Shown here piece by piece: positions 16,540 to 47,267 of a DNA stretch of 64,000 nt. Both the position numbers and the translations under genes were made by a program. The stretch covers positions 83,879 through 147,878 of IMG/VR virus record IMGVR_UViG_3300046171_000314; one strand, given 5' to 3'. How positions within the stretch are numbered: position 1 is the first letter of the stretch; the number at the start of each line of letters is the position of its first letter. This stretch comes from a virus. The notes under the pieces are model-generated. The model made no database searches, was not told the DNA's origin, and saw nothing but the letters and a program-made list of their open reading frames with translations.

Positions 16540-17148
16540 GTGAGTATAAAGAGAATCGCTGATAGATATATGACTAGGCATAGCGTCCGAACCGCAGGTG
16601 AAGTTCGTTTCGTAAAAGACAATTCTAACGATGCAAGTTCGTGGGCTTGGAAGCAAGGACCTTCTGAGCGTGTGATGACACCTGACCATGTGTTTAATCC
16701 TGCGAAGAAAAAAGCATTGGCGAAAGTTTTGAGAAGCACCACTGCATCAATGGGGCACGCTATGAGTGCTTATTCTACATTTACAAAAATCAAGAGTGCA
16801 GATGTTTCCCCTGATGGGAACTTAGGCGGCAAAGGGTACATTCAAAAGATAATGGATATGCGAAAGCAATATATGAATGTTGTTGAGGCTCTCTCTGCAC
16901 TCAGTGATACGATTTATGACGAAGTTTCTGCTCCACATTGGGCTGCAATCTCTCGTCAAGAAACGGATGAAGACAAAGCAGAAGTTGCACAAATTATGCA
17001 AGATGCTCAGGATATAAAAGAAAATCCTGAGGAGTGGGCAGAAGAACAGGAAGAAGAAATGGATAAAAACCCTGTGGGAAAAACCGCAAGCACAAAAGTT
17101 CCTTCTGTTGTTAGAGTTGCCCAACGATATTTAAAGGAGAGAGTCTAA
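16540..17148 (+). CDS. Hypothetical protein with RVAxRYL tag at both ends
   Basis: 202 residues, GTG start after GGAG. It begins IKRIADRYMTRH and ends VVRVAQRYLKERV, so the recurring tag is present at both termini. Residues 40-120 are helical and basic; 145-190 are acidic. Unrecognised otherwise. The stop overlaps the next start (TAATG). The terminal placement of the tag is the main clue and suggests docking to a shared partner. Confidence 0.55.
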   Translation: MSIKRIADRYMTRHSVRTAGEVRFVKDNSNDASSWAWKQGPSERVMTPDHVFNPAKKKALAKVLRSTTASMGHAMSAYSTFTKIKSADVSPDGNLGGKGYIQKIMDMRKQYMNVVEALSALSDTIYDEVSAPHWAAISRQETDEDKAEVAQIMQDAQDIKENPEEWAEEQEEEMDKNPVGKTASTKVPSVVRVAQRYLKERV

Positions 17149-19226
17149 TGAGTTCTAAGTTACCCTCAGAAACACTTGTGCCTAGAGGTCTTAATGGTCT
17201 TGTGGATACGTACCCTGACTTGAATTACGGATTAGGAGTGTTGGAGAAAAGACATTTGATTGATAGTGGTGAACAAACAGCACAGATCCCTGATGGATTA
17301 CAAAAAGAATCTGACTTGTTGTTAGGAGATCTCTCAGGGTTTATGGGGGAAGAAAGTAATTCCGATCTGTTATTTATGGATATAGAGCCTGATCCTGAGA
17401 TTCAATCTTTGCCTGAGTTTCAAGAGCCTGTTGCCGAACTCGAAGCGGCTTGGGCAGAGAGAGATCATACTCCTCTTTATGCAGAACACCAAAAAGAATT
17501 AATCGCTCCTGTGCAATCGGTTTCCCCTGAGATTTCAGAAGAATTGCTTGAGGAAACTCTGTACAAGGCGGCTCGTGCTTATGCTAACGGATTATCTCAA
17601 AAAGAGATAGATCGGTTGGTCAAAGCATCTCTTGGTGGAATGACCGACATGCTTCAAGAGGAACTTGAATGGTTGAAGGGGCAGCGAGGTCTTAATGGTA
17701 ATGTTTATGTTCTTGCTAGTGCCTACCCTAATCTTCATAATGGACAATGGAAAGAGGAGGTTCGAAAACTAGCCCAAAGAGCAAGATATTTAATAGTCGA
17801 CACAGACACAGTAATGGGTCGGAAACTTGCTTCTCAAGACCGTTTTATGGGGATGCAGATTGTAGAGGAAGTGGGTTGGAAAGAAGCCTTCAATCACTAT
17901 GCTCCCAAATTAAAGTCTTTGGGGTGTCGGTTGGCGAGTGAGGGTTCTTATGAACAACGAATTCAACAAGGGTTCTTAAACATTCCCAAACGCAAAGCGA
18001 ACTTGGGTACAAGACCGCAAGACTTTCGACCAACAGATCACATTACTCTTAAGGAAGCACAGCAAGAGTTTTCACAACTCATTCCGCAAGAGAGAAGGGT
18101 TTATGTAAGAGAGGCGAGCGAGAACAGAATACGCCTTAAGCAAGCAACCAAAAAAGTTATTCAATCATATAGAGCAGGGTTTATCTCTAAGTCAGAGTTG
18201 AAAGAAATAGTTGCGACAGGAGACCATCGGAAGATGCTCCAAATGTTGTCTTCTAAGAAGAAACTCTCTTCTGAAAGTTCTGAATACACCGCACCGATAA
18301 TAGGAAGACACCAAGATACAAGAAGAGAAGCATCTGTAGATGTTCGTGAAAGCCGCATACAGAAAAAACAGGCAGAGAGACATCGCAAAACAGTTGCACA
18401 GAAAGTTCAAAAGGTAGCAAAGGCAATCAAGAGTGGGCTTCGAGGGAGTTCTTTAGCGAAGATGCTTAGAGCCAACTTTAGCAAAGAGGACTTGGTTCTA
18501 GCATCCCCTTTGTTGAATCCTCTCTTGAAAGAAACCAATGCTCTGAATGAGACAGTTAAGGAAGCAAGAGAATATAGTGGAACACCTGAGTTCAGACACC
18601 AATCTGTTCGCAAGACAGCCCAACCTAAAAAGATATCCAAACAACAACAAGCCCTCAGAAAGATTTCTCTTTGGACAAGGCGACAAATGACAGAGGGTAC
18701 TTGTGGGGAGGTTCTTACAGGACTACTCAAAGCGAAGTTCGCCCCCTCCTTTCTTAAGTCTGCACAAGAAACTATTCTAGATGTTCGTCAGGCACACGAA
18801 GGTTTATCAGGGTTTGTTTATGTTGATGCTGAGGCTTATGCTTCACCGACAGGTACGAATGGTTGTGAAGAGGGTGCTCTGAGACATCGAGCCAACCAAC
18901 TTAAGTTTGTAAAAAAGATGGCTCGTTGCGGTGGGTGTTCCTTTGCAAACACTTTGGCAGATGGCACAAGTGTTTGTCAGAAGTACAACAAAAGATTGGC
19001 AGCAGAAACACCTGTGGAGTTCCCACAAGAGTACCAACAAGAAATGATTCGTCTTTCAAATGCTAGCGATGCCGAGCAAACTGCTTCTCTTTTCGGAAGC
19101 ACCTATACGAATGATTTTGGATTACAAAATACTGCCTTAGATGGTTTTGGTTTCAATGAAACTGCAAGTGTTGAGCAACTCAGCGGTCTGTTCTTTGGCG
19201 GTATGGATATTGGGGAAGATGAATAA
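17148..19226 (+). CDS. Large hypothetical protein
   Basis: 692 residues. The N-terminal ~150 are acidic. Residues 150-330 contain helical segments (YANGLSQKEIDRLVKASLGG) and an alpha/beta stretch (NGNVYVLASAYPNLHNGQ). The 330-500 part is highly basic and helical. Near 590-640 are cysteines (NGCEEG, ARCGGCSF, SVCQKYN) that may bind metal. The last 60 residues are low in charge. No family recognised; its size and place between tagged proteins and the terminase suggest an internal virion protein, which is inference. The TAATG stop overlaps the Dps-like start. Confidence 0.6.
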   Translation: MSSKLPSETLVPRGLNGLVDTYPDLNYGLGVLEKRHLIDSGEQTAQIPDGLQKESDLLLGDLSGFMGEESNSDLLFMDIEPDPEIQSLPEFQEPVAELEAAWAERDHTPLYAEHQKELIAPVQSVSPEISEELLEETLYKAARAYANGLSQKEIDRLVKASLGGMTDMLQEELEWLKGQRGLNGNVYVLASAYPNLHNGQWKEEVRKLAQRARYLIVDTDTVMGRKLASQDRFMGMQIVEEVGWKEAFNHYAPKLKSLGCRLASEGSYEQRIQQGFLNIPKRKANLGTRPQDFRPTDHITLKEAQQEFSQLIPQERRVYVREASENRIRLKQATKKVIQSYRAGFISKSELKEIVATGDHRKMLQMLSSKKKLSSESSEYTAPIIGRHQDTRREASVDVRESRIQKKQAERHRKTVAQKVQKVAKAIKSGLRGSSLAKMLRANFSKEDLVLASPLLNPLLKETNALNETVKEAREYSGTPEFRHQSVRKTAQPKKISKQQQALRKISLWTRRQMTEGTCGEVLTGLLKAKFAPSFLKSAQETILDVRQAHEGLSGFVYVDAEAYASPTGTNGCEEGALRHRANQLKFVKKMARCGGCSFANTLADGTSVCQKYNKRLAAETPVEFPQEYQQEMIRLSNASDAEQTASLFGSTYTNDFGLQNTALDGFGFNETASVEQLSGLFFGGMDIGEDE

Positions 19227-20035
19227 TGTACTTGAATGAAGAAAAAAGTTCTGAATTGGGTCGAGTATTGTTTGACCTTCTTACAACCCTACGAGCGATG
19301 TACGTTCATTATCAGAATTTACATTGGGAGAGTCAGGGTCAGGCTTTTTATAGTGATCATCTTTTGTATCAAAGATTATATGGAGGAGTCGCAGAAGAAA
19401 CTGATGCTCTCGCTGAAAAGATTTTGGGACTTACAGGGGATGGTGTTTTTGTTTCAGACATACACACTTTCGAGCACGGATACAACACTCTTCGTATTTG
19501 GTATGATGTTGCAAAGGGAAAGTCTTCAGAAGACAGGGCTTTGTTCTCTGAGTTCTACCTTTTGGAGCAGTTGGAATACACATCAGCCTACTTGGGGGAA
19601 TTGGGTGCAAAGTCTCTCGGACTAGAGGATTTCTTATCGGGATTGGCTAGTAAGCACGAGGAGCATATATACCTTCTCAGACAAAGAAATGGTTTTACAA
19701 AGAAGCGGCAAGCCTCTGCTGCTCACTTATTCTTTGATAATCCTCAGGCAAGGGAAGTTCGTGAGTTTTCCGAGAGCGGTGCTTTATCTAACAACCCTGA
19801 ATCCGCAGAAACATTTGAAGAGGAATTGCGAGCCGAAATCGCACCCCCTAATCCAAGTGAGATTATCGAAGACACAGCAGGGGCGGATGAGTTCTCTACT
19901 CTTTCAAGGTTCATTGTCGAAACAGAACAACCTGTCGAAGACGAGGCAAACATCCCACAAGGATATGACGATGTTGATAAAGCCGATGATGTTCGGTTGA
20001 AACAAGGTCGTAGAAAAAGACTTACTTGGAGATAA
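19226..20035 (+). CDS. Dps/ferritin-like protein with C-terminal extension
   Basis: 269 residues. The N-terminal ~155 are a four-helix ferritin-like domain: H33 and W34 in NLHWESQG, H45, D60 and E64 fall at the spacing of the Dps ferroxidase site (12, 15 and 4 residues apart), with Q49 where an Asp is usual. Dps proteins bind iron and DNA and protect against oxidants. Residues 160-269 are an acidic extension ending RRKRLTWR, echoed by the start (RRRRLTW) of the protein at 34448. Its setting among presumed virion genes hints at packaging with the genome. Confidence 0.65.
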   Translation: MYLNEEKSSELGRVLFDLLTTLRAMYVHYQNLHWESQGQAFYSDHLLYQRLYGGVAEETDALAEKILGLTGDGVFVSDIHTFEHGYNTLRIWYDVAKGKSSEDRALFSEFYLLEQLEYTSAYLGELGAKSLGLEDFLSGLASKHEEHIYLLRQRNGFTKKRQASAAHLFFDNPQAREVREFSESGALSNNPESAETFEEELRAEIAPPNPSEIIEDTAGADEFSTLSRFIVETEQPVEDEANIPQGYDDVDKADDVRLKQGRRKRLTWR

Positions 20036-22002: not shown

Positions 22003-23820
22003 ATGGCAGGTCTTGCTGACATTGCAATGGGTGCAGGCAGGGTTCGTGGCAGTGAAAGTCGAGATGTTGTAGATATTATCACTTTCATTGAGAGCGAATG
22101 GGGCTTGAAGATGAAACTTTTCCCCATTCAAAGAGTGATCTTGAAAGCCCACTATGGGATACCTCTTGATGACAAAGTTAAGGATGTGCCTGTATCGGAT
22201 TGGAGGCGTATCAATAACAGAATGATGACCGAGTTAGAGTACCTCCAATACCTTTATGATGATGGTCGGTGTAACATTAACTATGTTGAAGAAGGACACG
22301 AAAGACGAGAAATGATTCTCTCTGTTGGTCGAAGATCAGGAAAAACTACAATTAGTGCTTGTGTTGCTGCCTATGAGACGTACAAGTTGATTTCAAAAGG
22401 TGATCCACAAGCCTTTTATGGGTTGCCTGCAAGCAACGTTATACAGTTGATATCTGTTGCGACAGATAAAGACCAAGCAGGTTTGTTGTACAACGAGGTA
22501 TCAGGACACTTTCGGAACTGTACTTTTTTCACACCGTATATGGCTAACAACACAATGTCTTACGCAAGGTTTCAAACACCTATGGACATTGATAGGTATG
22601 GGTCTTATGCAGAGGACAATAGTGCCAATGCGAACATCAAGGTAACATTCAGGTCTTGTGTTGCTAAGGGTCTTCGTGGTGCAGGTAATATTTGCGTCAT
22701 CCTTGATGAGGTTGCTCACTTTACGGATAAAGGACAGAGTGGTGCAGAGGCGGTTTATAATGCGGTCACACCTTCGACATCGGCATACTCACAGAAAGAC
22801 CCCAATGACAAATCAAAGCCTGTCGGACCTGTTGAAGGTCGAATTATTTCGATTAGTTCCCCTCTTGGAAAACAAGGTTTGTTCTATAAGTTGTTTCAAA
22901 CTGCTATGGGCAGCGGAAAGGCAGCGGAGAATATGTTGGCTGTTCAAGCCCCTACTTGGGAGGTAAATCCTACTGTTCCTGCAAGCGAATTTGAGAAGCA
23001 TTATGTGAAAGACCCACGAGTATTTTTTACGGAATATGGTGCAGAGTTTTCAGATAGAACTAGGGGTTGGATAGAAGATAGGGTTGACTTAATGGCTTGT
23101 GTCATTGATGGTCGGAAAGCAAAGCAACGAGGTATTCCTCGATCTCCGCACTTTATGGGAATTGACTTGGGCTTAGTGGGTGATGGCAGTGCCGTTGCTA
23201 TTGGGCACATAGAAGATGGAAAGGTGATTCTTGATTGTGTGGAACAAATAAAGGCAGGCGAAGGGGCATTTGTCGACAAGGAAAGACTAGAGTTTGATGA
23301 TGTTGCTGATTGGGTTTATGAATGGACAAAGAAGTTCTACATAAAAGAAGGAATGTTCGATCAATGGGCAGGAATACCTTTTGAACAGGCTCTTGCGAAA
23401 AGAGGGTTGAAAGTTATAAAGTCGAAGCACTTTACAAAGACCCTAACATCTCAAATGTTTCAGAATTTTAAGAACTTAATGTTTGATGAGAAGTTGGAAT
23501 TATACAATGACCCTTCTGAGGAAGAGGAGTTGTCAGACTATCTCCAAGAGTTGCTTGAACTTCAAGCCCAAATACATAGCAAACACCTCATTACAGTAGA
23601 AGCCCCCCAAGTAGATGGAAAACACGATGATATGTCAGATGCCATAGTTCGTATGGTGTGGTGTGCTTCCCAAAATATGTCAAAGCAGTTAAGGATGACT
23701 ACATCGAGTGGAAAGGTTTTCGGTAATGCTCCAATAAATTCTAATAGGCGACACGTAAAGAGTAGGGTTAGGGCTATGAAAGGTGGTTCTCATCCAAGTC
23801 GATACAAGAAGAAAAGATGA
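22003..23820 (+). CDS. terL: Terminase large subunit
   Basis: 605 residues. ATPase: Walker A GRRSGKTT at 109-116 and Walker B VILDE at 232-236, followed by VAHF. Nuclease: MGIDLGLVGDGSAVAIG with D388, and KHDDMSDAI near residue 550 supplying the late acidic residues. This is the motor that translocates DNA into the prohead and cuts it. The last ~40 residues are basic. The portal is encoded 1.1 kb downstream, as expected for a packaging module. Confidence 0.92.
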   Translation: MAGLADIAMGAGRVRGSESRDVVDIITFIESEWGLKMKLFPIQRVILKAHYGIPLDDKVKDVPVSDWRRINNRMMTELEYLQYLYDDGRCNINYVEEGHERREMILSVGRRSGKTTISACVAAYETYKLISKGDPQAFYGLPASNVIQLISVATDKDQAGLLYNEVSGHFRNCTFFTPYMANNTMSYARFQTPMDIDRYGSYAEDNSANANIKVTFRSCVAKGLRGAGNICVILDEVAHFTDKGQSGAEAVYNAVTPSTSAYSQKDPNDKSKPVGPVEGRIISISSPLGKQGLFYKLFQTAMGSGKAAENMLAVQAPTWEVNPTVPASEFEKHYVKDPRVFFTEYGAEFSDRTRGWIEDRVDLMACVIDGRKAKQRGIPRSPHFMGIDLGLVGDGSAVAIGHIEDGKVILDCVEQIKAGEGAFVDKERLEFDDVADWVYEWTKKFYIKEGMFDQWAGIPFEQALAKRGLKVIKSKHFTKTLTSQMFQNFKNLMFDEKLELYNDPSEEEELSDYLQELLELQAQIHSKHLITVEAPQVDGKHDDMSDAIVRMVWCASQNMSKQLRMTTSSGKVFGNAPINSNRRHVKSRVRAMKGGSHPSRYKKKR

Positions 23821-24645: not shown

Positions 24646-24945
24646 ATGGGAAGACTTAGAGCAAGATTAGCAACAAATCCTGTTGAAAAGGATATATTAA
24701 AGAACTTGGCAGAGGCGGAACGGTCTTTATTGAAAGTTCTCGACATTGCTCGTTCGAGTCGTAAGGACAAAAATCTCCGACTCGGTAGATTGTCTGAAAT
24801 TGAGCAGAAGGTACAATCGGCTATTCGCTTGATAGATAATCCCCCAAGCATTACATCTAAGATAGATGCACAAGACCCTGATTTAAATCCGACAGTTCGT
24901 GATAGAAAACGAATGGAACGGATGGAAAAGAGAGGTAAGAAATGA
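24646..24945 (+). CDS. Hypothetical helical protein upstream of portal
   Basis: 99 residues, almost entirely charged helix (EKDILKNLAEAERSLLKVLD) with a basic C-terminus (RDRKRMERMEKRGKK). It overlaps the portal start by four bases (ATGA). Unrecognised; it may be a small assembly partner of the portal. Confidence 0.5.
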   Translation: MGRLRARLATNPVEKDILKNLAEAERSLLKVLDIARSSRKDKNLRLGRLSEIEQKVQSAIRLIDNPPSITSKIDAQDPDLNPTVRDRKRMERMEKRGKK

Positions 24946-26627
24946 CAAAGAAAAACGAGGGTGAAAAAGAAGTAGCCAAGTTAAAATCACGTCCTAATGT
25001 TCAGACAGGCAAGCCTCGAAAACTAACAGCAAGTTCAATGCGGATTGCAGGGTTACAGACTTACTCAGGGTCAGAGGGTTCAGGAGGGAATTTTTATTCT
25101 CCTGAGTTGAGCACGGACTTTCTTGAACTTCCTCAGAGTATGCACGAGCGATGGAACTACTTTCGGTTCTTCTATCGGTCTGAACCTTTCGTCGGGCAGG
25201 CAATTGACTTACACACTGAGTTGCCCCTATCTAAGATTAGGCTTGGATTTCCTAAGTACATAAAGAACAGAGATATGGCGAAAGAGGCTTTGGTGTTTTG
25301 TGAGAGATGGTCAAAGAAGATTGGGCTGCTCCATAGAATGATAGAAATTGTCCACGAATATAATCTTATTGGTGAGGTCTTTGTTTTTATGGAGGACACG
25401 ACTCCTGACCCCCCTAAAAGGTTGAGATATGAAACTGTCCGAAGGTTGGAAGAAGATGGCACTCTCTTTGAGGAAGAGATTGAACACGAAAACGCAGACG
25501 AAAAAGAGATTGAGTGGTTAAAGAAAAACTACTCAGGTTGGACAGCCATTCGAGTGCTTCCTCCTGAGCAAGTACATGTTCAATCCTTTCCGTTCACCGA
25601 CGAAAAGATAATGGAACTTATTCCTGACAGTAAGACAAAGGATATCATTGCCCAATCAGACGCAGGGGACATTCACGCCAAAAGGGTGGTTGATTCAATG
25701 CCAAAGGGTGTTGTTGATTCGGTTCGTGAAGGGAACAACATTCCTTTGAACACTGATCCTGAGGCAGGTTCTTTTGTGACCTACCTTGCTCGTAAAAAAT
25801 CTCAGTACGAAGATAGAGGGCATTCTATTCTTGAACGGTGTATTCGGACACTTGTTTTCAGAGATAAATTACGCCAAGCAAATACAAGTATTGCCTCTCG
25901 TCATATGACACCTATTCGATTGGTCTTTGCTGAGGATATGGATGTCCAAGATGTAGAAGATTTGAGAGAACAGGTCGACTTGGCTCTTGCTGATCCCGAC
26001 TTTTCGATTATCGCCAACTTTCAAATTAATTGGGAAGAGATGGGTTCAGATCAAAGACTCTTGGAGTTGTCAGGAGAGTATGACTTGACCGATAGACAGT
26101 TGTATGCAGGTCTTGGGGTAACAGAGGGGCTACTTAGCGGTGAAAGTTCTTACAGTGGGGATAGAATAAACCTTGAGGTCATCAACACTCGCTATATGCT
26201 TCTTCGAGAAATCTTACAGGATTTGGTTGAGGAAAAGATGCTCAAACCAATGTGTGCTCGTATGGGTTTCATAGAAGAAGATGAGTATGGCAATGAGCAG
26301 GTGTTATATCCGACACTATCCTTTACTCGTTTGGCTCTCAGAGATAACAATGACACCTTTGATGCGTTGTTCAACCTGTATCAAAAGGGTTCGCTTGATG
26401 TTGATATTATTCTCGAACTCTTGAACATTGATCCTGTGGCAACCAAAGAGAAATTAGAGAGAGATTTATTTACTATTAATGATGGCTCATTCAATGAGGT
26501 CTTGCGAGGTATCTACGGTGATGTGGGTCGAGCATTGGCAGAGAACAGCGATGCGGTAGAGATTATTGCGAAGAACTTGGGCTTAGACTATGCTGTTCCT
26601 GAGGAAGAGGGTGGCGGCAGGTTCTAA
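24942..26627 (+). CDS. Portal protein
   Basis: 561 residues. Phage portal features: HERWNYFRFFYRSEPFVGQA and then DLHTELPLSKIRLGFP in the N-terminal part, a clip/stem-like region with GWTAIRVLPPEQVHVQ, a long helix SILERCIRTLVFRDKLRQAN, and GLGVTEGLLSGESSYSGDRI followed by a long helix, as in gp20-type portals. It forms the dodecameric DNA channel at one vertex. The acidic C-terminus ends in EEEGGGRF. Its stop converges on the minus-strand gene with a one-base gap and no obvious terminator between. Confidence 0.8.
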   Translation: MTKKNEGEKEVAKLKSRPNVQTGKPRKLTASSMRIAGLQTYSGSEGSGGNFYSPELSTDFLELPQSMHERWNYFRFFYRSEPFVGQAIDLHTELPLSKIRLGFPKYIKNRDMAKEALVFCERWSKKIGLLHRMIEIVHEYNLIGEVFVFMEDTTPDPPKRLRYETVRRLEEDGTLFEEEIEHENADEKEIEWLKKNYSGWTAIRVLPPEQVHVQSFPFTDEKIMELIPDSKTKDIIAQSDAGDIHAKRVVDSMPKGVVDSVREGNNIPLNTDPEAGSFVTYLARKKSQYEDRGHSILERCIRTLVFRDKLRQANTSIASRHMTPIRLVFAEDMDVQDVEDLREQVDLALADPDFSIIANFQINWEEMGSDQRLLELSGEYDLTDRQLYAGLGVTEGLLSGESSYSGDRINLEVINTRYMLLREILQDLVEEKMLKPMCARMGFIEEDEYGNEQVLYPTLSFTRLALRDNNDTFDALFNLYQKGSLDVDIILELLNIDPVATKEKLERDLFTINDGSFNEVLRGIYGDVGRALAENSDAVEIIAKNLGLDYAVPEEEGGGRF

Positions 26628-26628
26628 T

Positions 26629-27036
26629 CTACCTAACACTGTGTCGAGGATTACCTGTTAGATTGGCAAGGGAGATGTGGAACGTTCTGTTCTCCCTTAT
26701 ATTAATTCCAAGATCCCTTCTAATACTATCCACAAACTTTTCTAATGCTTTTTGAGTGGTTGGGGTTACTTTCAGTGCCCAAGTTTCACGACCTTGTTTT
26801 TCGTCTATTCTGTACCAAATTTTATTCTCAAATTGAATCTTTGGTATTGTAGGGAACACAAACTCTTTCGAATTAAGAATATCCTTGTAAGGAGATAAGA
26901 TATCATAATGTATAAGAGTGATGTGGGTAACACTTGGGTCAAGAACTACTGCTCTTTCGGGAAAAGAAAACCTCTTGTGTATTTCTCCAAAAGAGCGATC
27001 TTTTAACATCAGTATTCCATCGAATTTGATTTTCAT
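26629..27036 (-). CDS. 2H phosphoesterase, Acb1-like (putative anti-CBASS)
   Basis: 135 residues from ATG 27036 with GGAG seven bases upstream. It carries the two H-x-[ST] motifs that define 2H phosphoesterases: H38-I-T40 (THITLIHYD) and H120-I-S122 (FHISLANLTGNP). Size, motif spacing (82 residues) and the NLTGNPxxSV-type end resemble phage T4 Acb1, which cleaves cyclic oligonucleotides made by bacterial CBASS immunity. Acb1 function is inference; an RNA ligase-like or cyclic phosphodiesterase role is also possible. It lies with other minus-strand accessory genes dividing the portal from the head genes. The longer ORF to 27192 is not needed. Confidence 0.65.
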   Translation of the reverse strand: MKIKFDGILMLKDRSFGEIHKRFSFPERAVVLDPSVTHITLIHYDILSPYKDILNSKEFVFPTIPKIQFENKIWYRIDEKQGRETWALKVTPTTQKALEKFVDSIRRDLGINIRENRTFHISLANLTGNPRHSVR

Positions 27037-27074
27037 TGTTGCTCCGAGTTTATCTTTCCTGAATAATAGAAAGA

Positions 27075-27470
27075 TTATTTGGCGGCTTGTGCTTTCTCTA
27101 ACAGTTGTTTGATGTGCCACGAGCCAATTAAGGAACTGTTGAGAGTCTGCTCGATAGCCATTTGATCCATCTCTAATCGTTGATCGAGCCAAATAGCAAG
27201 TCGAATAACGTGCTTACAGATGTTCTTTCTTTTACTGCCTTCACATTCACACCTAACGGTTCTGTCTTTTATACTAATGCTTGTGTTGTATACCTGAGCA
27301 TTTTCAAGAGGGGTGTGTGTCATACCAACAACAACTCCGCTTTCAATATTGACAGAAGGGATTTCAAGGGCGACCTTGCTTGCTCTTTTCTTTCCCTCTG
27401 CTCCTTGTGCTTCAATGAGTTTGCTTAGGGTTTTTCGGTATTCTATGGTCTTTGATAGTACATTCATCAT
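27075..27470 (-). CDS. SWIM zinc-finger protein
   Basis: 131 residues. C74-x-C76-x8-C85-x-H87 (RCECEGSKRKNICKHVI) is a SWIM zinc finger, which binds DNA or protein. The flanks are helical with a basic N-terminal half. AGGAG precedes three clustered start candidates, of which 27470 or 27467 is most likely. It lies 38 bp upstream of the 2H phosphoesterase gene on the same strand, so the two are probably co-transcribed. The upstream minus strand contains GGTAATCCTATTACAAG (27482-27498), a degenerate promoter-like copy. A second SWIM protein is encoded at 47903. Confidence 0.7.
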   Translation of the reverse strand: MMNVLSKTIEYRKTLSKLIEAQGAEGKKRASKVALEIPSVNIESGVVVGMTHTPLENAQVYNTSISIKDRTVRCECEGSKRKNICKHVIRLAIWLDQRLEMDQMAIEQTLNSSLIGSWHIKQLLEKAQAAK

Positions 27471-27519
27471 ATCTCCTATTGCTTGTAATAGGATTACCGA
27501 AATGGGGTTGAGATCTGAT

Positions 27520-27538
27520 CGTTAATTCCTCTATATTT
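27520..27538 (+). promoter_or_regulatory. Late-type promoter motif
   Basis: CGTTAATTCCTCTATATTTC lies in the divergent gap between the SWIM gene and the tagged gene, 28 bp before ATG 27567. The CTATATTT half is perfect. Confidence 0.5.
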
Positions 27539-27566
27539 CTTTCAAAGTGAACATAAGGAGAAGAAC

Positions 27567-27905
27567 ATGTCTAATTTAAGAAGCAAAATCATTCGACTTG
27601 CTCACGCAAAACCTGAGTTGCGAAAGCACTTACTACCTCTTGTCACTAATAAAAAGGCTTACAAAGACCCTTGTAATGGAGGTTCTTACTTCGGTGATAG
27701 TTATGACGAGACTATGGTAGGTCTTGAAGAATGTCACGATGAAAAAATTAATGAAAAAAAAGTCGACGATGCTTTTGAATTACTCACAATATTAAGTAAC
27801 GAAGATGATTTTGAATTTCCAAATGGAATGGAAACAGTAAGTTTGAAATTTCGTCTTAATCGGGCAGAGTCTGAATTCGTGAAGTGGCATTACGACAACG
27901 TATAA
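27567..27905 (+). CDS. Small protein with N-terminal LRxKhIRLAH tag
   Basis: 112 residues. LRSKIIRLAHAKPELRKHLL then PLV at residues 4-26 is the shared tag. The body (from ~35) is acidic and helical with no known motif; it contains two cysteines (PCNGG, EECHDE). It has its own late-type promoter copy and an AGGAG site, and it converges on the minus-strand metallopeptidase with no gap. A single-gene cassette inside the accessory island; function unknown. Confidence 0.6.
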   Translation: MSNLRSKIIRLAHAKPELRKHLLPLVTNKKAYKDPCNGGSYFGDSYDETMVGLEECHDEKINEKKVDDAFELLTILSNEDDFEFPNGMETVSLKFRLNRAESEFVKWHYDNV

Positions 27906-28286
27906 TCAATGTCTATCTAAGTGCTCTAACAAAAGAGCGTGGGCATCCATAAGATTGTTGTCTTTAAGGATGCTCAAGGCTACTTGATCACAGTGGCTCT
28001 CATCTAGGGTTTTCAAATAGATGTGAGCCATTTCGTGTGCAAGGATTACGAACAGGTGGTCGGCACTGAACCAATCTGTGTGTAATATTTCTTTATCCAA
28101 TAGAATCAGAGGTTGTGGGACATCTTCCCAAACAGCAAAAGCGTGTGAGTCTTTGAACATTGACATTTCGAAGTGCCACTTGCTATCTTCAGGCAGTTCG
28201 AACTTATCATTATACTTATCGAGTACGAGTACGAGAATGCTTTCATCCAAAGGACAATCGAATCTTGTGTATTGCTCTAAGTTCAT
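27906..28286 (-). CDS. HEXXH metallopeptidase-like protein
   Basis: 126 residues from ATG 28286; an upstream GTG at 28292 is possible. HEMAH at 84-88 is the zinc-metalloprotease helix, and ESHCD at 96-100 could give the third ligand. The small size suggests a minimal zincin. The likely role is cleavage of a host or virion protein, inferred only from the motif. It belongs to the minus-strand accessory group. CAATAAAACCCCTATAAC on the minus strand at 28309-28326, 23 bp upstream of the start, is a degenerate promoter-like copy. Confidence 0.6.
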   Translation of the reverse strand: MNLEQYTRFDCPLDESILVLVLDKYNDKFELPEDSKWHFEMSMFKDSHAFAVWEDVPQPLILLDKEILHTDWFSADHLFVILAHEMAHIYLKTLDESHCDQVALSILKDNNLMDAHALLLEHLDRH

Positions 28287-28308
28287 ACTCACCTCATTAA
28301 TGGGTATT

Positions 28309-28377: not shown

Positions 28378-29535
28378 ATGTCTAAGAAGGTGTGGTCTGA
28401 ACTAGAAAGTATTTGGTTTCGAGAAGCCAAATACAAAGACAAAAAAACCATCAAAAATAAAGATGGTGAAGAGACAACTGTTTATGAATACAGTGATCGT
28501 CAGGTCAATACAAGAAACAAGGAGAAGTCTAAGAAGGTCGAGAAGATACGACAGAACATAGATGCCCTTGAAAAAACGGTTTATTCTGATCTTAAGAGTA
28601 AAGAAAACAAATTGGTTGCTCTTGCGGTTGCTCTCATAAACCACACTTATGAGCGAGTAGGGAACGATGAGAGTGCTTCCAATGGTCACTATGGGGTAAC
28701 AGGTTGGAAGAAGAAGCATCTGTCTTTCAAAGGCGGCAAAGCCATTCTTAAATACACAGGCAAGAGTGGTGTAAAGCACGAGAAAGAAATCACCGACAAG
28801 AAACTCGTCAGTGCTTTGAAAGAGATTTCAAAAGGATTATCAGGAGATGATTGTTTGTTGGAAGAGATCAGTGCCTCAGATGTGAATGACTATCTTGATC
28901 AATTTGGAATCACTGCGAAGGATATCAGAGGATATCACGCCAACAGAGAAATGCAGGAACGCCTTAAAGCCCTCCGAGAAGAAAACGGTGCTCTGCCTAA
29001 GGATAAGAAAGAAAAAGAACAACAACTCAAAGACGAGTTCAAAGAGGCATTAGAGGGAACAGCAAACTCGGTAGGGCACGAAGAGGCAACTCTCAGAAAG
29101 CAATACCTTGTGCCACACCTAGAAGACACCTATATGAAAGATGGTACGGTTATCACTACTCTGAAGGAAGCCTCTCGACTAGGGGACTGTTATGAGGCGG
29201 CAGGTAGGTATATGCTTGACAACTGCCACAGGAAAAACCTAATTCTTGTCCATGCGGAGGTAACAGGTCAGGGTAGGATTGATGGTGTGAAGTACGGACA
29301 CGCATTTATTCTTGATGGCAATACTGTAATAGATGTCTCAAATGGCAATAACATTAAGATGGAAAAAATGGTCTATTTCTTATTGGGTAAAATTGGGCAG
29401 TACGACCTGAAAACAGGGGATGTAGACACTAGCAAAGCCAATATGCACACATACACTTGCGACCAATTTCGAGAAAAGATTAGTAGACACGAACATTGGG
29501 GTCCGTGGGATCTTCAAACAAGTACAGGGTACTGA
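28378..29535 (+). CDS. Topoisomerase IB fused to papain-like C-H-D domain
   Basis: 385 residues. Residues 50-250 hold the topoisomerase IB active site: R93 (RVGND), K129 (GKSG), R184 (AKDIRG), H234 (VGHEEATLRKQYL) and nucleophile Y243. The gaps of 36, 55, 50 and 9 residues are close to those of vaccinia enzyme (R130, K167, R223, H265, Y274). It should relax supercoils through a 3'-phosphotyrosine link. Residues 255-385 form a second domain with C271 (GDCYEAAGRYM), H308 (YGHAFILDG) and D319 (VIDVSNG), in the order of papain-like thiol enzymes, ending HEHWGPWDL. Its N-terminus ESIWFREAK is shared with the next protein. Confidence 0.7.
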   Translation: MSKKVWSELESIWFREAKYKDKKTIKNKDGEETTVYEYSDRQVNTRNKEKSKKVEKIRQNIDALEKTVYSDLKSKENKLVALAVALINHTYERVGNDESASNGHYGVTGWKKKHLSFKGGKAILKYTGKSGVKHEKEITDKKLVSALKEISKGLSGDDCLLEEISASDVNDYLDQFGITAKDIRGYHANREMQERLKALREENGALPKDKKEKEQQLKDEFKEALEGTANSVGHEEATLRKQYLVPHLEDTYMKDGTVITTLKEASRLGDCYEAAGRYMLDNCHRKNLILVHAEVTGQGRIDGVKYGHAFILDGNTVIDVSNGNNIKMEKMVYFLLGKIGQYDLKTGDVDTSKANMHTYTCDQFREKISRHEHWGPWDLQTSTGY

Positions 29536-29536
29536 T

Positions 29537-31624
29537 ATGGAAAAAAAGATTTTCACCAAGTTACAGAAGAAGCACGTTCGAGTTGATCCCCAAATTCTTT
29601 CAGAGATTAGAGGAACACGAATACGTTCCGCAACTCTTGTGAGGATAGCAAAACAAGTGTTCGCAACCAAATCTCAATCTGAGAAAGAAGACGAAGAGGT
29701 TGAGAGATTACAGAAACCATCTCCAAAGAAGAAGCCTCCTCGTAAGGATAAATCTCGTAGAAGGGTAAAGATTAAAGACAAGGACACAGACAAAGACCCT
29801 GACTTGAACACCAAAGATATGTCAATGAACTACAAGATAGTGGGAAGTCAACTTGAAACCCTTTGGTTCAAAGATGCGAAGGAGGACTTGAACACTGTCC
29901 GTAGAAAAGAAGATGGAGAGGTCATACAGGTGTCTGACAATACACTCAAAGAAAGAGGCTCTGAGTTTGATATCGTGGAAGATGATGATGAAGACGAAGA
30001 CACAGAGGTAGAGGAAGATACAGAGACAGAGCAAAACGAAACCTCAACAGAGAATGCCCCTGAGGATAAAGAAGACAAAGAAGAGGTTAAGAAGGAAGAA
30101 GAAAAAGAAGAAGCCAATACGCAAGGTGATGCCGTAAAGAAAGAGTTCAGTAAGACCTTAGAGGGGAAAGAGGGGGCGTTGGATTTCCTGTTGGAATTGG
30201 GGGATGATGTAAAAGCCTTGTTGTCTGAAAATGCGGATACCTTAAAAGGTGTTGAAAATATGAAGGTCATCCTGAAAGAAAAAGGTTCTTTGCTTGAGTC
30301 TATCCAAGATGCTTTGGAGGGTGATTATGGTTCTGAGTTTATGGATGCTGTTAAAGATGTTTTGGGTGAGGGGCTTGACACAGATGTTTCTGTTGAAATA
30401 ATAGAGACATTAAAAAAAGTTATTGATGAGGGAATAACAGATACCCCTGTCAAAGAGTTGGCAGAGTTGTCTGTTGATGAGTTGGAGCAGCGGATATTAG
30501 ATGAAGCAGAGTTAAAAGATATCCACACAGAGAAAACCAAAGAGTTGAAAGATAAATACAAGAAAGAGGTTCGTGAAAAATTCGAGTCTTTGTCGGATAG
30601 CGATGCAGGGATAGAAAAAGTTCATAGTATTCTTGCGGAGGTTTCTAACGCAGAGTTGTCCTACTTTTCGAGTGTTGTGAAAGAGCCTATGGATAAACTC
30701 GAAGAGATAGACAAGTCTTTGGAAGATAAGAAAGAGGAATTGGAAAAAGCAGAGGGAAAAGAGAAGCGAACTCTTGAAAAGGAGATCAAAGCCTTAGAGC
30801 AGGAGAAAGGTCAGTTAGAAGAGTCTTTGCCCAAGTTGAATACTGTAAAGAACATGGTTAATGTCAATGCTATTCTTAGAGGGGAAGATAGTTCAATAGT
30901 TGGGGAGGTGTCCGACAAACAAAAAAGTTTGATTTCTTTTTTGGGAGACCATCTTCCTGTTGAGGGTGTTCTTGACTCTATGTCTCAGATTGTTTCTGTT
31001 TCAGAAGATAGCGATAAAGAGGTGGAGTCTAAGACTCAAATGCAACTAGCGATTGGAAACTCAATGAAAGACCTGTCTATGGATCAGAAGATGAGTGTTC
31101 TTATGGATCAGAAAGTTTTTGATGACAACAAAATATTTATTGAGGCTTTCAATAGATACGCAGAGCAAGCCAAGAGTCCTCTAATTACCGCAGCCAAACG
31201 AAAGGAACTAGAGGATATGGCTGATATGATGTTCTCAAGAGCAATGGCAGAAACTTTGGCAGGGTCAGAAGGCACGAGTAAGGATAAGAAGGATAAGAAG
31301 CCTTCTTCCTCTTTTTCCTCTAAAGAAAAAGCAAAAGAAAGATCTAACTTACTTAATTCTATTGGAAAAATTCTTGAAGAGAATCTTGGATCATTCCTTT
31401 CCGATCCTGATCAAGTTAATGACGCAGACATTTCAGGTATGTCAGAAGGGCTTGATTCTGCTATCCAAGCCGAGTCTATTCGTGAGATGTATCGGAAAAG
31501 AATGGAAAATGCCTCTGAAGGCGAGAAGCAACTTTTGCAGAAAAAACAGGAAGAGGCTGTTGAACGAATGATGAAAAAGGCAAAAATAAGATCAAATCTC
31601 ACTCTTCTTTGGGGTAAGATTTGA
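29537..31624 (+). CDS. Large acidic coiled-coil protein
   Basis: 695 residues. A basic start with RIRSATLVRIAKQVF is followed by a K/R-rich stretch, then GSQLETLWFKDAKEDLNTV at about 100-118, which resembles the topoisomerase N-terminus. After that it is mostly acidic coiled coil (long E/D/K runs at 135-200; 330-430). It starts two bases after the topoisomerase stop. The composition resembles a head scaffold or internal core protein, and it lies in the head module, but no motif confirms this. Confidence 0.55.
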   Translation: MEKKIFTKLQKKHVRVDPQILSEIRGTRIRSATLVRIAKQVFATKSQSEKEDEEVERLQKPSPKKKPPRKDKSRRRVKIKDKDTDKDPDLNTKDMSMNYKIVGSQLETLWFKDAKEDLNTVRRKEDGEVIQVSDNTLKERGSEFDIVEDDDEDEDTEVEEDTETEQNETSTENAPEDKEDKEEVKKEEEKEEANTQGDAVKKEFSKTLEGKEGALDFLLELGDDVKALLSENADTLKGVENMKVILKEKGSLLESIQDALEGDYGSEFMDAVKDVLGEGLDTDVSVEIIETLKKVIDEGITDTPVKELAELSVDELEQRILDEAELKDIHTEKTKELKDKYKKEVREKFESLSDSDAGIEKVHSILAEVSNAELSYFSSVVKEPMDKLEEIDKSLEDKKEELEKAEGKEKRTLEKEIKALEQEKGQLEESLPKLNTVKNMVNVNAILRGEDSSIVGEVSDKQKSLISFLGDHLPVEGVLDSMSQIVSVSEDSDKEVESKTQMQLAIGNSMKDLSMDQKMSVLMDQKVFDDNKIFIEAFNRYAEQAKSPLITAAKRKELEDMADMMFSRAMAETLAGSEGTSKDKKDKKPSSSFSSKEKAKERSNLLNSIGKILEENLGSFLSDPDQVNDADISGMSEGLDSAIQAESIREMYRKRMENASEGEKQLLQKKQEEAVERMMKKAKIRSNLTLLWGKI

Positions 31625-32445: not shown

Positions 32446-33012
32446 GTGGAAAAAGCATCAGCAGGTAGCGTGGTTAACCTCCCATTAAGGTCTGAAGACT
32501 TTCAAGTTGGCGACAGTATTGTCGCCCTTGATGGTCCGAGGGACAATGTTGGGAAGATAACCCGTTTATACCCTGCCATTGGTATGGCAGATGTTGAGTT
32601 CTCGACAGGAAATCATCGGATGCCTGTCGAAGAGATCAAGAAAGTCGATGAAGACGATAAGGGCTATGCTCCGAATACGGACTCTACGGTGGGTGGTGGT
32701 ATAGATCTTGAGCCTTTTGGCGTTCGTGACATTAGTACAAAAGACCCCTCAAATTCTTTTGGGGTATTGGCTACTCGTGTTGCGAGGGCTTGGGTCAAGA
32801 AAGGTCTTTATTGGGCTTCTGTTGATCGTAAGTATCGTGCCACCAAGTCTGAGTGTGGTTCTCACTACACCTGTCCCAAATGTCCTGAGGTTGCTTTGAA
32901 AAAAGCCATCTATAAAAGAGACAGTGGGGCAAGTGAAAAGTTGTGGGGATGTCCTAGTTGTATGTTCTTAATAAAGGACAGCGACATTACAAGATACAAT
33001 GGAGGTATGTGA
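32446..33012 (+). CDS. Hypothetical protein with KOW-like and zinc-binding segments
   Basis: 188 residues, GTG start after TAGGAG. Residues 20-65 (VGDSIVALDGPRDNVGKITR) look like an SH3/KOW barrel. RVARAWVKKGLYWA near 115 carries the recurring tag. At the C-terminus, two CxxC pairs (HYTCPKCPEV; WGCPSCMF) form a zinc ribbon. The TGATG overlaps the protease start, so expression is coupled. Function unknown; the zinc ribbon may bind the protease or DNA. Confidence 0.55.
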   Translation: MEKASAGSVVNLPLRSEDFQVGDSIVALDGPRDNVGKITRLYPAIGMADVEFSTGNHRMPVEEIKKVDEDDKGYAPNTDSTVGGGIDLEPFGVRDISTKDPSNSFGVLATRVARAWVKKGLYWASVDRKYRATKSECGSHYTCPKCPEVALKKAIYKRDSGASEKLWGCPSCMFLIKDSDITRYNGGM

Positions 33013-34415
33013 TGGCTTTTATGAAATATGCCTCTGCTCTCTTAATGTCCCCTAGTATTTCTCAAAGGGGTTGGAAAAAGGTTCGAACTGCTTCCATGAA
33101 AGCAGGCGGAAATCTTGTTCATCAAGCCGAGAACATTTTTGGTCAAAAGTTTGATCCGAGTAAGTACTTATTGTCTCATTGTACGATAGTGGCTTCTGTT
33201 GATGTTGATGAAGTCTCCAATGTTAAAATGGGGTCTGTTCAAGAAGGTGGTAAGACAATTAATCGCAAGTATAGCGATTACTATATTACTCCCCAAACCT
33301 CTAAGTATGTAAATAACAATGGGGATTCTTGGTCAAGAGAAGTTCTTATGAAGTCTTACAAAACCTTTATAGGTTCTCATAACTTTCAAGAACATGTACA
33401 AATAGAAGACCTGTCAAAGGGTCGCATTATTGATGCAGTTGCTCGTGATGTTGGTGAGAGTATTTATATTGATATTCTTGTGGCTACGGATCGACAACAC
33501 ACACAATTAGTAGAGGACATAGAGAGTGGCAAAATGGCTACTCTTTCTATGGGATGTACTGTCGAAGCAACCATTTGCTCTCAATGTGGAAATGTTGCAG
33601 TAGATGAAACCGATATGTGTGATCATATTAAATATGCCAAACTAAACAAGTTCTTTGACAAGAGCGGTAATCAAAGGGTTATTGCAGAACTTTGTGGTCA
33701 CCCTGAGATGGGTGATACAGGCGGTGTTCATTTTATAGAAGCCTCTTGGGTTGCTGTTCCTGCTTTTACAGGTGCGGTAATGAGAAATATTTTGACACCT
33801 GAGCAAGTTAGTGCAGAAGTCAAAAAGAAGGCTACTGAGATTCTTTCTGTTCCTCCGAGTGAGTGGGTCAATCCTGAGGGCAATCAAAAGGTTGCTCGTG
33901 ATGTATATGCTCGTGGAATGTTTGATGACGATGACGATGATGATGGCGGTGGCGGAGATGCCTCTCCAATTAAAGAGTTGGAAGATGAAATGGTTCAAGT
34001 GGTTAAGAAGAGAGTTCTTGATCGATTGAAAACCGAAATGAATCCTCCAAAGGAAGAAGCAGAAAAAGATGCCCCAAAGACAGAAGATGCTACCACGTAT
34101 CAAAATGATACGATAGTCAAAGAGGCTATGCGTAAAGGTGCATTGGAAGGTCTTGTAAAGATTTCCTCCTCTTCGGTGGAATTGGTTGATGGTATTGCTA
34201 GGCTCGATAGAGCGAACGGTGAGCCATTTGCAATAGATTTGTATCGTGCCTCTCTTAGAGTAGGTTCGACCACAAATTACCCTTCTTTGAGATCCTTTTT
34301 GGCACAATGTCATAAAGTGTTGAGAAGAAGATTTACTTCACAAGAAGCAAAAAAATTGGTTCGCCTTGCTAAACTCATAGAAATATGGGAGAAGCGGAGC
34401 AACTTTCAATCTTAA
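33012..34415 (+). CDS. Prohead protease with zinc-binding insertion
   Basis: 467 residues from ATG 33012. HK97/S78-type core: SHNFQEHVQIEDLSKGRIID, then a catalytic-Ser-like segment ATLSMGCTVEA near 185, and EASWVAVPAFTGAVMRN near 250, matching the S-x-G and SWVxxPA pattern. Between them lies a ~50-residue insert with CSQCGNVAVDETDMCDH (Cys/His zinc site). The C-terminal third has a run of D and G, a helical acidic region and a final KKLVRLAKLIEIWEKR. It should cleave scaffold and capsid during maturation; the neighbours are scaffold-like and capsid genes. Upstream starts inside the preceding gene were rejected. Confidence 0.7.
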   Translation: MAFMKYASALLMSPSISQRGWKKVRTASMKAGGNLVHQAENIFGQKFDPSKYLLSHCTIVASVDVDEVSNVKMGSVQEGGKTINRKYSDYYITPQTSKYVNNNGDSWSREVLMKSYKTFIGSHNFQEHVQIEDLSKGRIIDAVARDVGESIYIDILVATDRQHTQLVEDIESGKMATLSMGCTVEATICSQCGNVAVDETDMCDHIKYAKLNKFFDKSGNQRVIAELCGHPEMGDTGGVHFIEASWVAVPAFTGAVMRNILTPEQVSAEVKKKATEILSVPPSEWVNPEGNQKVARDVYARGMFDDDDDDDGGGGDASPIKELEDEMVQVVKKRVLDRLKTEMNPPKEEAEKDAPKTEDATTYQNDTIVKEAMRKGALEGLVKISSSSVELVDGIARLDRANGEPFAIDLYRASLRVGSTTNYPSLRSFLAQCHKVLRRRFTSQEAKKLVRLAKLIEIWEKRSNFQS

Positions 34416-36414: not shown

Positions 36415-37287
36415 ATGTCTAATGTTAATAATGCTGTAAAGCAAAAAATTATTTCTGATTATATCAAAACTCCTCAAGGGCGTGCAAAACTTGCTGCTTC
36501 TATGACTCAACCGCTTCGTTTGCGTAGAGATTATAGTTCGGTTGGTCGTAAGACTTTCCTTGTGGAACAACTACCTGATGGTGCTCTTCCTATCTATGAT
36601 AAAGACCCTGACGTAACTGCTTATGTTGTTGGTGAAGAAGGTGAAAACATTCTTGCTATCACTAAGCCTCGTCGTGTTATTTTTCCATTGTTTGAAATTG
36701 CATCCAACCCTGAAATTCCTTTGACACAAATCAAAGAGCGTCGTTTCGACTTGATCGAACGTGCTCAAGACTTGGCTCGTGCTCAAATCCAAGCCGCAGA
36801 AGATGAGCGAGTATTCGCTACTCTTGATGGTGTTGCTACTAACGGATTTGATTCTTTGGGAACTGAAAATGCTGACATTCCTGTTGTTGCTCCTGTTACA
36901 GGTGCAGTACTTGCTGATGCATATGCTCTCATCGAACGCCACGATCTTCGTGTTGCTCGTGTCTTTATGAATGCTCGTGACTATGCTGACCTTCGTAAGT
37001 TTGGTCGTGACATTCTTGACATCGAATCTCAAAGAGATTTGTTGAAGACAGGTCTTATGGGAACTCTTTGGGGTGCTCAAATCATTACTTCACGTATCGT
37101 TCCTGTTGGAACTGTATATGTTGCTTGTGAGCCTGAGTACTTTGGTCGTATTCCTGTTCGTACCGAACTTACTGTTCTTTCTGCTGATGATCCTAAGGCT
37201 CGTACCATTGGTTTCTCAGTATTTGAAAATCTCGGTATCGGTTGTTTCAATCCAAAAGGACTTGTTCGTTTGTCAATTACTCGATAA
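36415..37287 (+). CDS. Major capsid protein, HK97-type
   Basis: 290 residues. The pattern is that of short HK97-fold/encapsulin-like capsid proteins. An N-terminal arm contains RLRRDYSSVGRKTFLV. Next comes the E-loop region VVGEEGENILAITKPRR, and the spine helix RFDLIERAQDLARAQIQAAE follows. The P-domain carries ADAYALIERHDLRVARVFMN. The C-terminal strand segment has WGAQIITSRIVPVGTVYV. Codon use shifts to CGT/GCT/CTT, as in highly expressed genes. Adjacent protease and scaffold-like genes support the call. A strong terminator follows. Confidence 0.8.
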   Translation: MSNVNNAVKQKIISDYIKTPQGRAKLAASMTQPLRLRRDYSSVGRKTFLVEQLPDGALPIYDKDPDVTAYVVGEEGENILAITKPRRVIFPLFEIASNPEIPLTQIKERRFDLIERAQDLARAQIQAAEDERVFATLDGVATNGFDSLGTENADIPVVAPVTGAVLADAYALIERHDLRVARVFMNARDYADLRKFGRDILDIESQRDLLKTGLMGTLWGAQIITSRIVPVGTVYVACEPEYFGRIPVRTELTVLSADDPKARTIGFSVFENLGIGCFNPKGLVRLSITR

Positions 37288-45538: not shown

Positions 45539-46318
45539 GTGAAAAAAGGATCAAAAACCGCTTATAGTCCGCCTGCATCCGAACTTCCGGGTCAGCAGAC
45601 CTATGTCCGAGAAAAGGATGATACAGGATCAGGTGATAAGGACAGATCCCCTGATAGTGTTTTATCGCCTGACAAAGCCACACCTAGATCTCCAACTAGA
45701 CCCGACAGCAATAAAGAAGACAACATCACACACTTGGGACCTACCACATTCAATGTTCCTGATGGCACAGCAGATGAGATTAAATCTCGAACTAGACCTG
45801 CGGAGGGTGAGCAATATGGACACCCCTATAACGATCAAACCACGAATGTTCGGATAAAGAAAGACAGAAGAACCGCATCAGTTGGAAGAGCACTTGAACA
45901 ACAAATGACTCAAAGAGTTGCGAGTGCTTGGATAAAGAAAGCGGTTATTCGTGTTCGTGAAAGACCCCACGTAAAATCAAAAGGGCTGTTTAATACTCGA
46001 TACAAAAGAGATAAGCCTAAGTCGCAACAGAACCAACACCCCAATAAAGATAAGTTGAAGAAGAAAAGATACTATCGACGAAACAAGGCGAAGATTAGGC
46101 GAAAGAACAATATAAGATACAAGAGAAAGTATAAGAACAATCAGCGGTGGAAAAAAGTGCAACAGCGAAGGAAGGAGAACCCTGCCAAGCACGTTAGAAA
46201 ATCCCCCAACAAGTCCTTGTTGAAAAGAAATAGAAAGAAGCACCAAAAGAACTATAAGAACAGAAATAAGAGTGCCTTGTTGCAAAGAGTAGTAGACAGG
46301 TATTTGCTCTCTGAATAG
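45539..46318 (+). CDS. Highly basic Lys/Arg-rich protein with tag motifs
   Basis: 259 residues, GTG start. The N-terminal half is disordered-looking. RVASAWIKKAVIRVRERP near 125 is the recurring tag, and the C-terminus (LLQRVVDRYLLSE) carries it again. Residues 145-245 are almost entirely K, R, N, Q and Y. Such composition fits nucleic-acid binding, for example DNA condensation in the head. Its neighbour at 46357 has a similar basic block. Confidence 0.55.
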   Translation: MKKGSKTAYSPPASELPGQQTYVREKDDTGSGDKDRSPDSVLSPDKATPRSPTRPDSNKEDNITHLGPTTFNVPDGTADEIKSRTRPAEGEQYGHPYNDQTTNVRIKKDRRTASVGRALEQQMTQRVASAWIKKAVIRVRERPHVKSKGLFNTRYKRDKPKSQQNQHPNKDKLKKKRYYRRNKAKIRRKNNIRYKRKYKNNQRWKKVQQRRKENPAKHVRKSPNKSLLKRNRKKHQKNYKNRNKSALLQRVVDRYLLSE

Positions 46319-46356: not shown

Positions 46357-47267
46357 ATGAGTGAATATGATGAAATCATTGAGGAAGAGTCTGAGGAAGA
46401 ATCTGAAGAGGATCATCTTGCAGTTAGTAGGATGCCTGAGACCCAAAGACGACAGATGAACAAGTCTCGCAAAAAAAACAAGGGCAAAAATCAGGGTGGA
46501 AAAAGAAAGAGAAGAAAAAAAGACAAGAAGAAGCGAAGAGAGAATAGATCAAAAATAAAGAGGTACAATAAAAGAAGGAATAAAAAGCCTTGGGGGGGGC
46601 TAGGGGGGCAGCCGAGAGAGTAGCGGCAAGATGGCTCAATGCGGACTTTCTCTATGAGAAAAGACCCCCTGAGGAAGATGAGATTTATTATCCAAGTGGC
46701 ACAAACTATTCTCCGAGTGGGGGTAATGGTTACTATAAGTTCGACCCTTCTAATAAAGAAAGAAAACCCTCTGAGGTTCAGAACACAGATGGGGAACAGC
46801 CTGATGTTGGAAACACATCAAGGGTTGTACCGAATGGGCAGTTTGTGAAAGCCTCTGACCATCCTCAATCGCTCAAGGACTTGGTTAATCGAGAGATAGA
46901 TTTGATAGGAGAATTGAATAAATTGGAAAAGGCTTTCAAAGAAACAGAGTCTTCTCGAAATGGCGAACGCCTAAAAGTTCATCGCTTGAGCAGAGAACAA
47001 TCTGAACACTTTAAGAAGATACTTATATTACTTGATGAGGAAGCCCACATTGAACAAGCAGTCAGCCTCGCAGATGCGATTGACCTACTAGGAAACCTCC
47101 GCAGAGAACTACTTATCCGACGGGAGAGTGTGCGAGAAAAACTTAGAGAAATCAGAAAAGAAATAAAAGAGTGGAACGAAGCAGAAGATAAAAGAATGGA
47201 AAAGATGATGAGAGAGATGTTCAATCGAGTAGCCCATCGATACTTACAGGGGAACTTGAAATGCTAA
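46357..47267 (+). CDS. Basic tagged protein, frameshifted at a G8 run
   Basis: The first frame (46357-46623) is acidic, then strongly K/R-rich (SRKKNKGKNQGGKRKRRKK). The next frame, without a usable start, continues AERVAARWLNADFLYEKRP and ends FNRVAHRYLQGNLKC at 47267. One missing base in GGGGGGGG (46592-46599), or in the nearby G6, restores ~302 residues. The tag is thus present in the middle and at the C-terminus. The C-terminal half is helical (REIDLIGELNKLEKAFKETE). It overlaps the aldolase gene by seven bases. Confidence 0.5.

Follow-up and report, generated by a model that had tools for sequence, protein, structure and literature searches.

Why would a phage gene for a topoisomerase IB (TopoIB) carry a second, enzyme-like domain, and why does it stand among head genes? 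Such a gene lies in the window analyzed here, a 64,000-nucleotide stretch of an IMG/VR virus record (IMGVR_UViG_3300046171_000314, positions 83,879 to 147,878). A first-pass annotation had described it as a TopoIB followed by a putative papain-like domain with Cys, His, and Asp in that order (here called the C-H-D domain), and the open reading frame (ORF), coordinates, length, and residue numbers it gave were all exact. The observation was confirmed and its interpretation was partly supported, and the gene proved to be part of something larger than had been noted. The features discussed are collected in Table 1, and L numbers denote individual viral loci.

Table 1. Fused gene, its parts, and the surrounding head-gene cluster, in window coordinates
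Feature	Position	Strand	Evidence or remark
Terminase large subunit	22003..23820	+	PHROG phrog_2, E=1.4e-21
Portal protein	24942..26627	+	PHROG phrog_16240, E=8.6e-33
Small zincin-like (M48/SprT-like) metallopeptidase	27906..28292	-	PF01435, E=2.8e-4, narrowly above the Pfam cut-off
Fused gene, 385 aa, TopoIB + C-H-D domain	28378..29535	+	ORF and translation; one unbroken frame in the 147,878-base record
Poxvirus-type topoisomerase IB domain, aa ~14-262	28417..29163	+	PF01028, PDB profile match, invariant residues R93/K129/R184/H234/Y243
Catalytic Tyr243 codon	29104..29106	+	Profile alignments pair it with the tyrosine of the pox and Deinococcus TopoIBs
C-H-D domain, aa 266-385	29173..29532	+	35-sequence viral family with invariant C, H, and D; AlphaFold2 pLDDT 86.7
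C-H-D residue codons (Cys271; His308; Asp319)	29188-29190; 29299-29301; 29332-29334	+	
IF tag, N terminus of next ORF (MEKKIFTKLQKKHVRVDPQILSEIR)	29537..29611	+	Starts 1 nt past the C-H-D stop codon
695-aa acidic (pI 4.8) head-cluster protein	29537..31624	+	phmmer match to TopoIB polyproteins
Head maturation protease	32958..34415	+	phrog_18299, E=9e-13
Major head protein	36415..37287	+	phrog_2522, E=8e-53

The topoisomerase domain and its head-gene neighborhood

By domain identity, the N-terminal part of the protein is a complete poxvirus-type TopoIB, for which DNA relaxation is predicted. Pfam PF01028 (Topoisom_I) matches aa 45-242 with E=4.2e-24 and 85.6 bits against a curated cut-off of 23.7. 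Searched against the PDB, a profile built from five phage relatives found Deinococcus TopIB (2f4q/3m4a, E=3e-19) and pox TopoIB (E=5e-14 and 4e-11). The residues R93, K129, R184, H234, and Y243, which the first-pass annotation had read as the active site, do not vary among the five phage sequences and lie in the same order as, and aligned with, vaccinia R130, K167, R223, H265, and Y274, the last two of which we take to be the counterparts of H234 and Y243. In the profile alignments, the VGH histidine and the next tyrosine of the pox and Deinococcus enzymes fall on these same two window residues, and the placement of the catalytic tyrosine at 243 holds in the aligned family profile. The window enzyme thus has the whole catalytic set and the spacing of the poxvirus-type enzymes (vaccinia/variola; Deinococcus TopIB, PDB 3m4a). 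Unlike them, it is encoded by a phage, within a head-gene cluster, and bears a C-terminal thiol-enzyme-like domain, and phage TopoIBs further differ in often being one module of a giant ORF. Neither the fusion nor the C-H-D domain was matched by PADLOC.

The gene order in the window is terminase, portal, TopoIB-CHD, 695-aa ORF, protease, and major head protein. An ATKxxEKEDEE...KKPPRKD segment of the 695-aa protein is fused directly to TopoIB in relatives. In the gap between the portal gene and the fused gene, three minus-strand genes (26629-28292; a SWIM-like zinc finger, the zincin-like gene, and one unknown) lie inside the plus-strand head cluster, and two of the three are kept in L061-L063. 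Just before the terminase genes, the ORF at 19226-20035 has a start (MYLNEEKSSELGRVLFDLLTTLRAMYVHYQNLHWESQG...) that by eye is Dps/ferritin-like.

Sequence family and fold of the C-terminal domain

Scans of viral contigs collected the C-H-D family, at 8 loci and later at 46. In an alignment of 35 viral sequences, with identities to the window domain down to 29%, C271, H308, and D319 are among only nine invariant columns, and chance is therefore no explanation for their conservation. The other invariant columns include H292 (in LVH) and the G-P-W of a terminal HWGPWD. The window copy itself deviates from the family, with GHAF for GHAW, LVHA for LVHG, an insert of ~12 aa, and an end branch of 0.57; it is changed at positions that hardly vary in the rest of the family, and its activity could be altered.

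AlphaFold2, given the 35-sequence alignment, returned a confident model of the domain (pLDDT 86.7, pTM 0.79); a full-length model made without an alignment was unusable (pLDDT 44). By DSSP of the domain model, in domain numbering, helix 20-31 begins at C20 (Cys271), strand 54-62 contains H57 (His308), and the next strand, 65-68, ends with D68 (Asp319). A Foldseek search of the PDB gave a best match of E=0.08, zero matches below 0.001, and a TM-score of at most 0.40. The first 20 neighbors, none significant, mostly had papain/transglutaminase/NAT folds, with GtgE, staphopains, a papain-like toxin, a NAT-type amide synthase, pseudomurein endoisopeptidase, vasohibin, phytochelatin synthase, and SseI represented. 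Weak Pfam matches to Transglut_core3 were found in 9 of the 35 members (best E=0.006) and not in the window copy.

The domain thus shares with papain/transglutaminase-like enzymes (staphopain, SseI/PMT-type, vasohibin, NAT/GdmF, Transglut_core3) the Cys-His-Asp order and, in the model, a Cys that opens a helix, with His and Asp on later strands. It differs from them in having no significant sequence or fold match, in its own HWGPWD end, and in its length of only about 105-125 aa. The invariant set agrees with the C-H-D order that the first-pass annotation had recognized, as does the confident model, in which the elements follow one another as expected and whose PDB neighbors are nonsignificant; together they support the fold class to a moderate degree, and we consider a thiol-enzyme fold very probable. 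NlpC/P60, a fold to which that annotation had also pointed, gave no C-H-D match among the Pfam profiles.

No convincing Pfam or PHROG family was found for the domain, and PDB sequence searches with the domain or its profiles returned chance-level or unconvincing matches only. A tblastn search with four members found no convincing relative in 50,697 phage records. Prokaryotes, scanned with one genome for each species, gave a single 18-residue match and nothing else, so the domain looks viral. Separate production of the domain from an internal start at a Met near residue 253 was considered and dropped, as no convincing ribosome-binding site was seen there by eye.

Origin of the fusion and the tag beside the domain

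The C-H-D domain is mostly stand-alone, and its fusion to TopoIB is rare. An alignment scan for TopoIB yielded 59 distinct ORFs at 72 viral loci, with many contigs of 200-500 kb, and a single one of these ORFs (L028 = L100) has both domains. The first-pass annotation had called the architecture nonstandard for phages, and it is indeed no standard annotated one, with none in the 50,697 phage records. In the closest relatives of the window gene (L061-L063, 76% identical), TopoIB is joined directly to the following polyprotein segment. Aligning the window with L061 leaves one clean insert, which comprises the C-H-D domain, a stop/start, and a short peptide at the beginning of the next ORF, here called the IF tag. 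The order of TopoIB, C-H-D, and next polyprotein segment is identical in the window and L028. A single origin of the fusion was nevertheless dropped on the TopoIB tree, where L028 and the window fall in different clades with well-supported branches between them. Because the C-H-D domain of L028 also does not group with that of the window, which sits on a long branch, the unit of domain and tag probably entered at least twice.

A neutral history has to be weighed here, in which independent enzymes were fused in frame by chance, with no functional meaning, and TopoIB is an intracellular, unpackaged enzyme. We find this doubtful, if credible: the triad is intact despite divergence, both fusions share the same order of parts, and TopoIB is repeatedly part of head-cluster polyproteins, as set against the rarity of the fusion (two cases), its separate origins, the fast evolution of the window C-H-D copy, and the plain TopoIB gene of 250-356 aa found in some relatives.

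The tag, with a consensus like IF[TD]xxxxKKxRVxPxxLxxLE (also written IFxxxxKKxRVxPxxLxxLE), stands beside the domain in the main C-H-D clades. The ORF that bears it usually begins within -4 to +3 nt of the C-H-D stop; in L019, L020, and L025 the tag lies just N-terminal of the C-H-D domain itself. The sequence after the tag varies and includes TopoIB-SprT (L017), a zincin protein (L016), and others, down to a 51-aa ORF right after the C-H-D gene (L023:6300-6455) that holds little beyond the tag and an RVASRFLGR end. When a tag profile was run against the 13,002 ORFs of all loci, the tag was found only beside C-H-D; since the profile was built from sequences in that position, the informative part is the absence elsewhere, including TopoIB loci without C-H-D. 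The idea of a general cargo tag was dropped on this result. In a related form, the next ORF of a marine C-H-D subfamily begins with DEPREIGKKKxRVS, and the tag of L028 is recognizable by eye only. The tag was not seen in the divergent C-H-D members L031, L039, L042, L051, L054, L057, and L059. One of these (L042:5992-7164) carries ~260 more residues and lies near a DnaB-like helicase gene, outside any head cluster.

These peptides resemble the capsid-targeting propeptides of T4 internal head proteins in being short N-terminal peptides on head proteins, with cleavage putative for the tag. Unlike the T4 propeptides, the IF tag is tied to the C-H-D gene and not to all cargo. The tag might instead act on the C-H-D domain as its propeptide or inhibitor, the two forming an effector and its keeper, a controlled protease directed at host targets after delivery. 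The gene layout is comparable to that of a staphopain gene followed by a staphostatin inhibitor gene, and staphopain is among the best fold neighbors of the domain (none significant). The tag takes the place of a propeptide in the three loci where it is N-terminal to the enzyme and is otherwise on the very next gene. A tag of only ~25 aa on proteins as unlike as TopoIB-SprT, the zincin protein, and the 51-aa peptide would nonetheless be unusual for an inhibitor, and we consider this explanation unlikely.

Modular topoisomerase ORFs and the proposed role of the fusion

Of the 72 loci, 54 have a head-cluster gene at most 8 kb from TopoIB, counting as such terminase, portal, and protease genes and relatives of the ORFs at 32446 and 34448 in the window; this search found none in the other 18. 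The TopoIB ORFs are longer than 450 aa in 35 of 59 cases and longer than 900 aa in 25, reaching 2,806 aa, and in 24 of the 59 TopoIB runs into a KPPRxD segment, which the window has in the next ORF. Modules are shuffled among these ORFs, which further hold HAD_SAK_1 (LR745208), a PolyA_pol head domain (L069, L088, and L096), a 2'-5' RNA ligase (L074), a LAGLIDADG intein (L069), and an SprT-like domain (L008). Head association is not general for the C-H-D domain, since divergent copies can adjoin replication genes and not head genes.

A short motif, R[VI][AV]x[RK][YFW] (RVAxRY), has 49 occurrences across the 59 distinct TopoIB ORFs where shuffles predict 0.4, with some copies shared by descent, and often stands directly before TopoIB. 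It is absent from 36 portal, 35 terminase, 29 protease, and 24 MCP-side ORFs. A slightly looser form has 7 copies in the window, where 0.4 would be expected and 200 shuffles gave 2 at most, with sites at both ends of the ORFs at 16540-17148 and 46590-47267, at the C-terminal end of 45539-46318, and at the N-terminal end of 47903-49036. Stand-alone HAD_SAK and PolyA_pol genes of other phages bear the motif as well. From its placement in these sequences, the motif seems to mark the module borders of cargo-like proteins, and it is possibly a packaging tag or a module linker.

One role that the first-pass annotation had suggested for the C-H-D domain is to release or modify the topoisomerase while this is covalently bound. 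The domain would then cleave or modify the DNA-bound enzyme as a built-in release protease, with a role like that of SPRTN/Wss1. Zincin motifs in 13 of the 59 TopoIB ORFs (2.0 expected), the SprT-like domain fused to TopoIB in L008, and the small zincin just upstream in the window point in this direction, as TopoIB would thus be paired with proteases of two unrelated folds. However, such motifs are as frequent in RVAxRY ORFs without TopoIB (8 of 24, against 16 of 944 in other ORFs), and a specific pairing of TopoIB with proteases was dropped for this reason. The suggestion also needs the C-H-D domain and TopoIB together, which is rarely the case: 58 of the 59 TopoIB ORFs from other viruses lack the domain, and most C-H-D copies lack TopoIB. 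Moreover, TopoIB reseals its own break and normally needs no release. We therefore consider a release protease very unlikely.

Polyvalent proteins of phages and conjugative elements are multidomain and are encoded beside portal and terminase genes, and packaging and injection have been proposed for them (Iyer et al. 2017, PMC5512222). The window gene and its relatives resemble them in combining several enzyme domains per polypeptide (two in the window, several in relatives) and in their head-cluster context, and 2H phosphoesterase modules are common to the polyvalent proteins and the relatives. The words "papain" and "transglutaminase" are absent from the main text of that paper and "topoisomerase" occurs in its reference list only; the RVAxRY motif and the IF tag, unlike its contents, come from the present analysis. 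Giant-phage ejection proteins (SPN3US, PMC10052503) are a further case of enzymes as head cargo, and the window cluster likewise has a head maturation protease. Neither the enzyme class nor the idea of cargo is new. A limited literature search found no description of the C-H-D family, its tag, or the RVAxRY modular ORFs.

Some large DNA viruses carry TopoIB in the virion. By analogy with them, the phage TopoIB would relax supercoils at the first transcription or replication of the injected DNA, and both its location and the polyvalent-protein precedent (PMC5512222) suggest that it is probably packaged with the genome. The C-H-D domain, as a putative papain/transglutaminase-type thiol enzyme (Cys271-His308-Asp319), would have arrived as a mobile unit together with the tag on the next ORF, and this unit would have cut an ancestral gene for a TopoIB-core polyprotein in two. 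The domain would most likely recognize the IF tag and so process, or less likely conjugate, the tag-bearing head or cargo protein encoded alongside; it would be joined to TopoIB for co-delivery and not to act on it. Processing of a partner in the head had been raised in the first-pass annotation, and the tag linkage adds some weight to that idea. Taken jointly, a two-enzyme head cargo whose C-H-D domain processes an IF-tagged neighbor is a reading to which we give an even chance.

In a variant of this reading, which we hold only tentatively and would sooner doubt than accept, the C-H-D domain and its tag would be a mobile maturation or conjugation pair for head cargo. The domain would then recognize the tag on whichever cargo protein comes next, and TopoIB would be one interchangeable cargo enzyme among those joined by RVAxRY.

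If TopoIB-CHD is indeed two-enzyme head cargo, large uncultivated phages would carry a topoisomerase among their head-encoded cargo enzymes, like some large eukaryotic DNA viruses, and phage head cargo would be assembled from interchangeable enzyme modules. With a thiol-enzyme-like family and its dedicated tag, the choice, maturation, or release of head-carried proteins by phages would become open to testing, and a small new tag-specific protease might be gained.

Two sequences of other loci deserve mention for their composition. In the window's closest relatives, a ~150-aa domain without a Pfam match lies N-terminal of TopoIB (L001:5542-6000, FIHFTPQSRAREILASGRLLF...), and by eye its start is somewhat of the ADP-ribosyltransferase/KptA type. 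The 2,806-aa ORF at L069:2001-10421, in a head cluster, has the PolyA_pol head domain followed by the LAGLIDADG intein, a zincin motif, and TopoIB.
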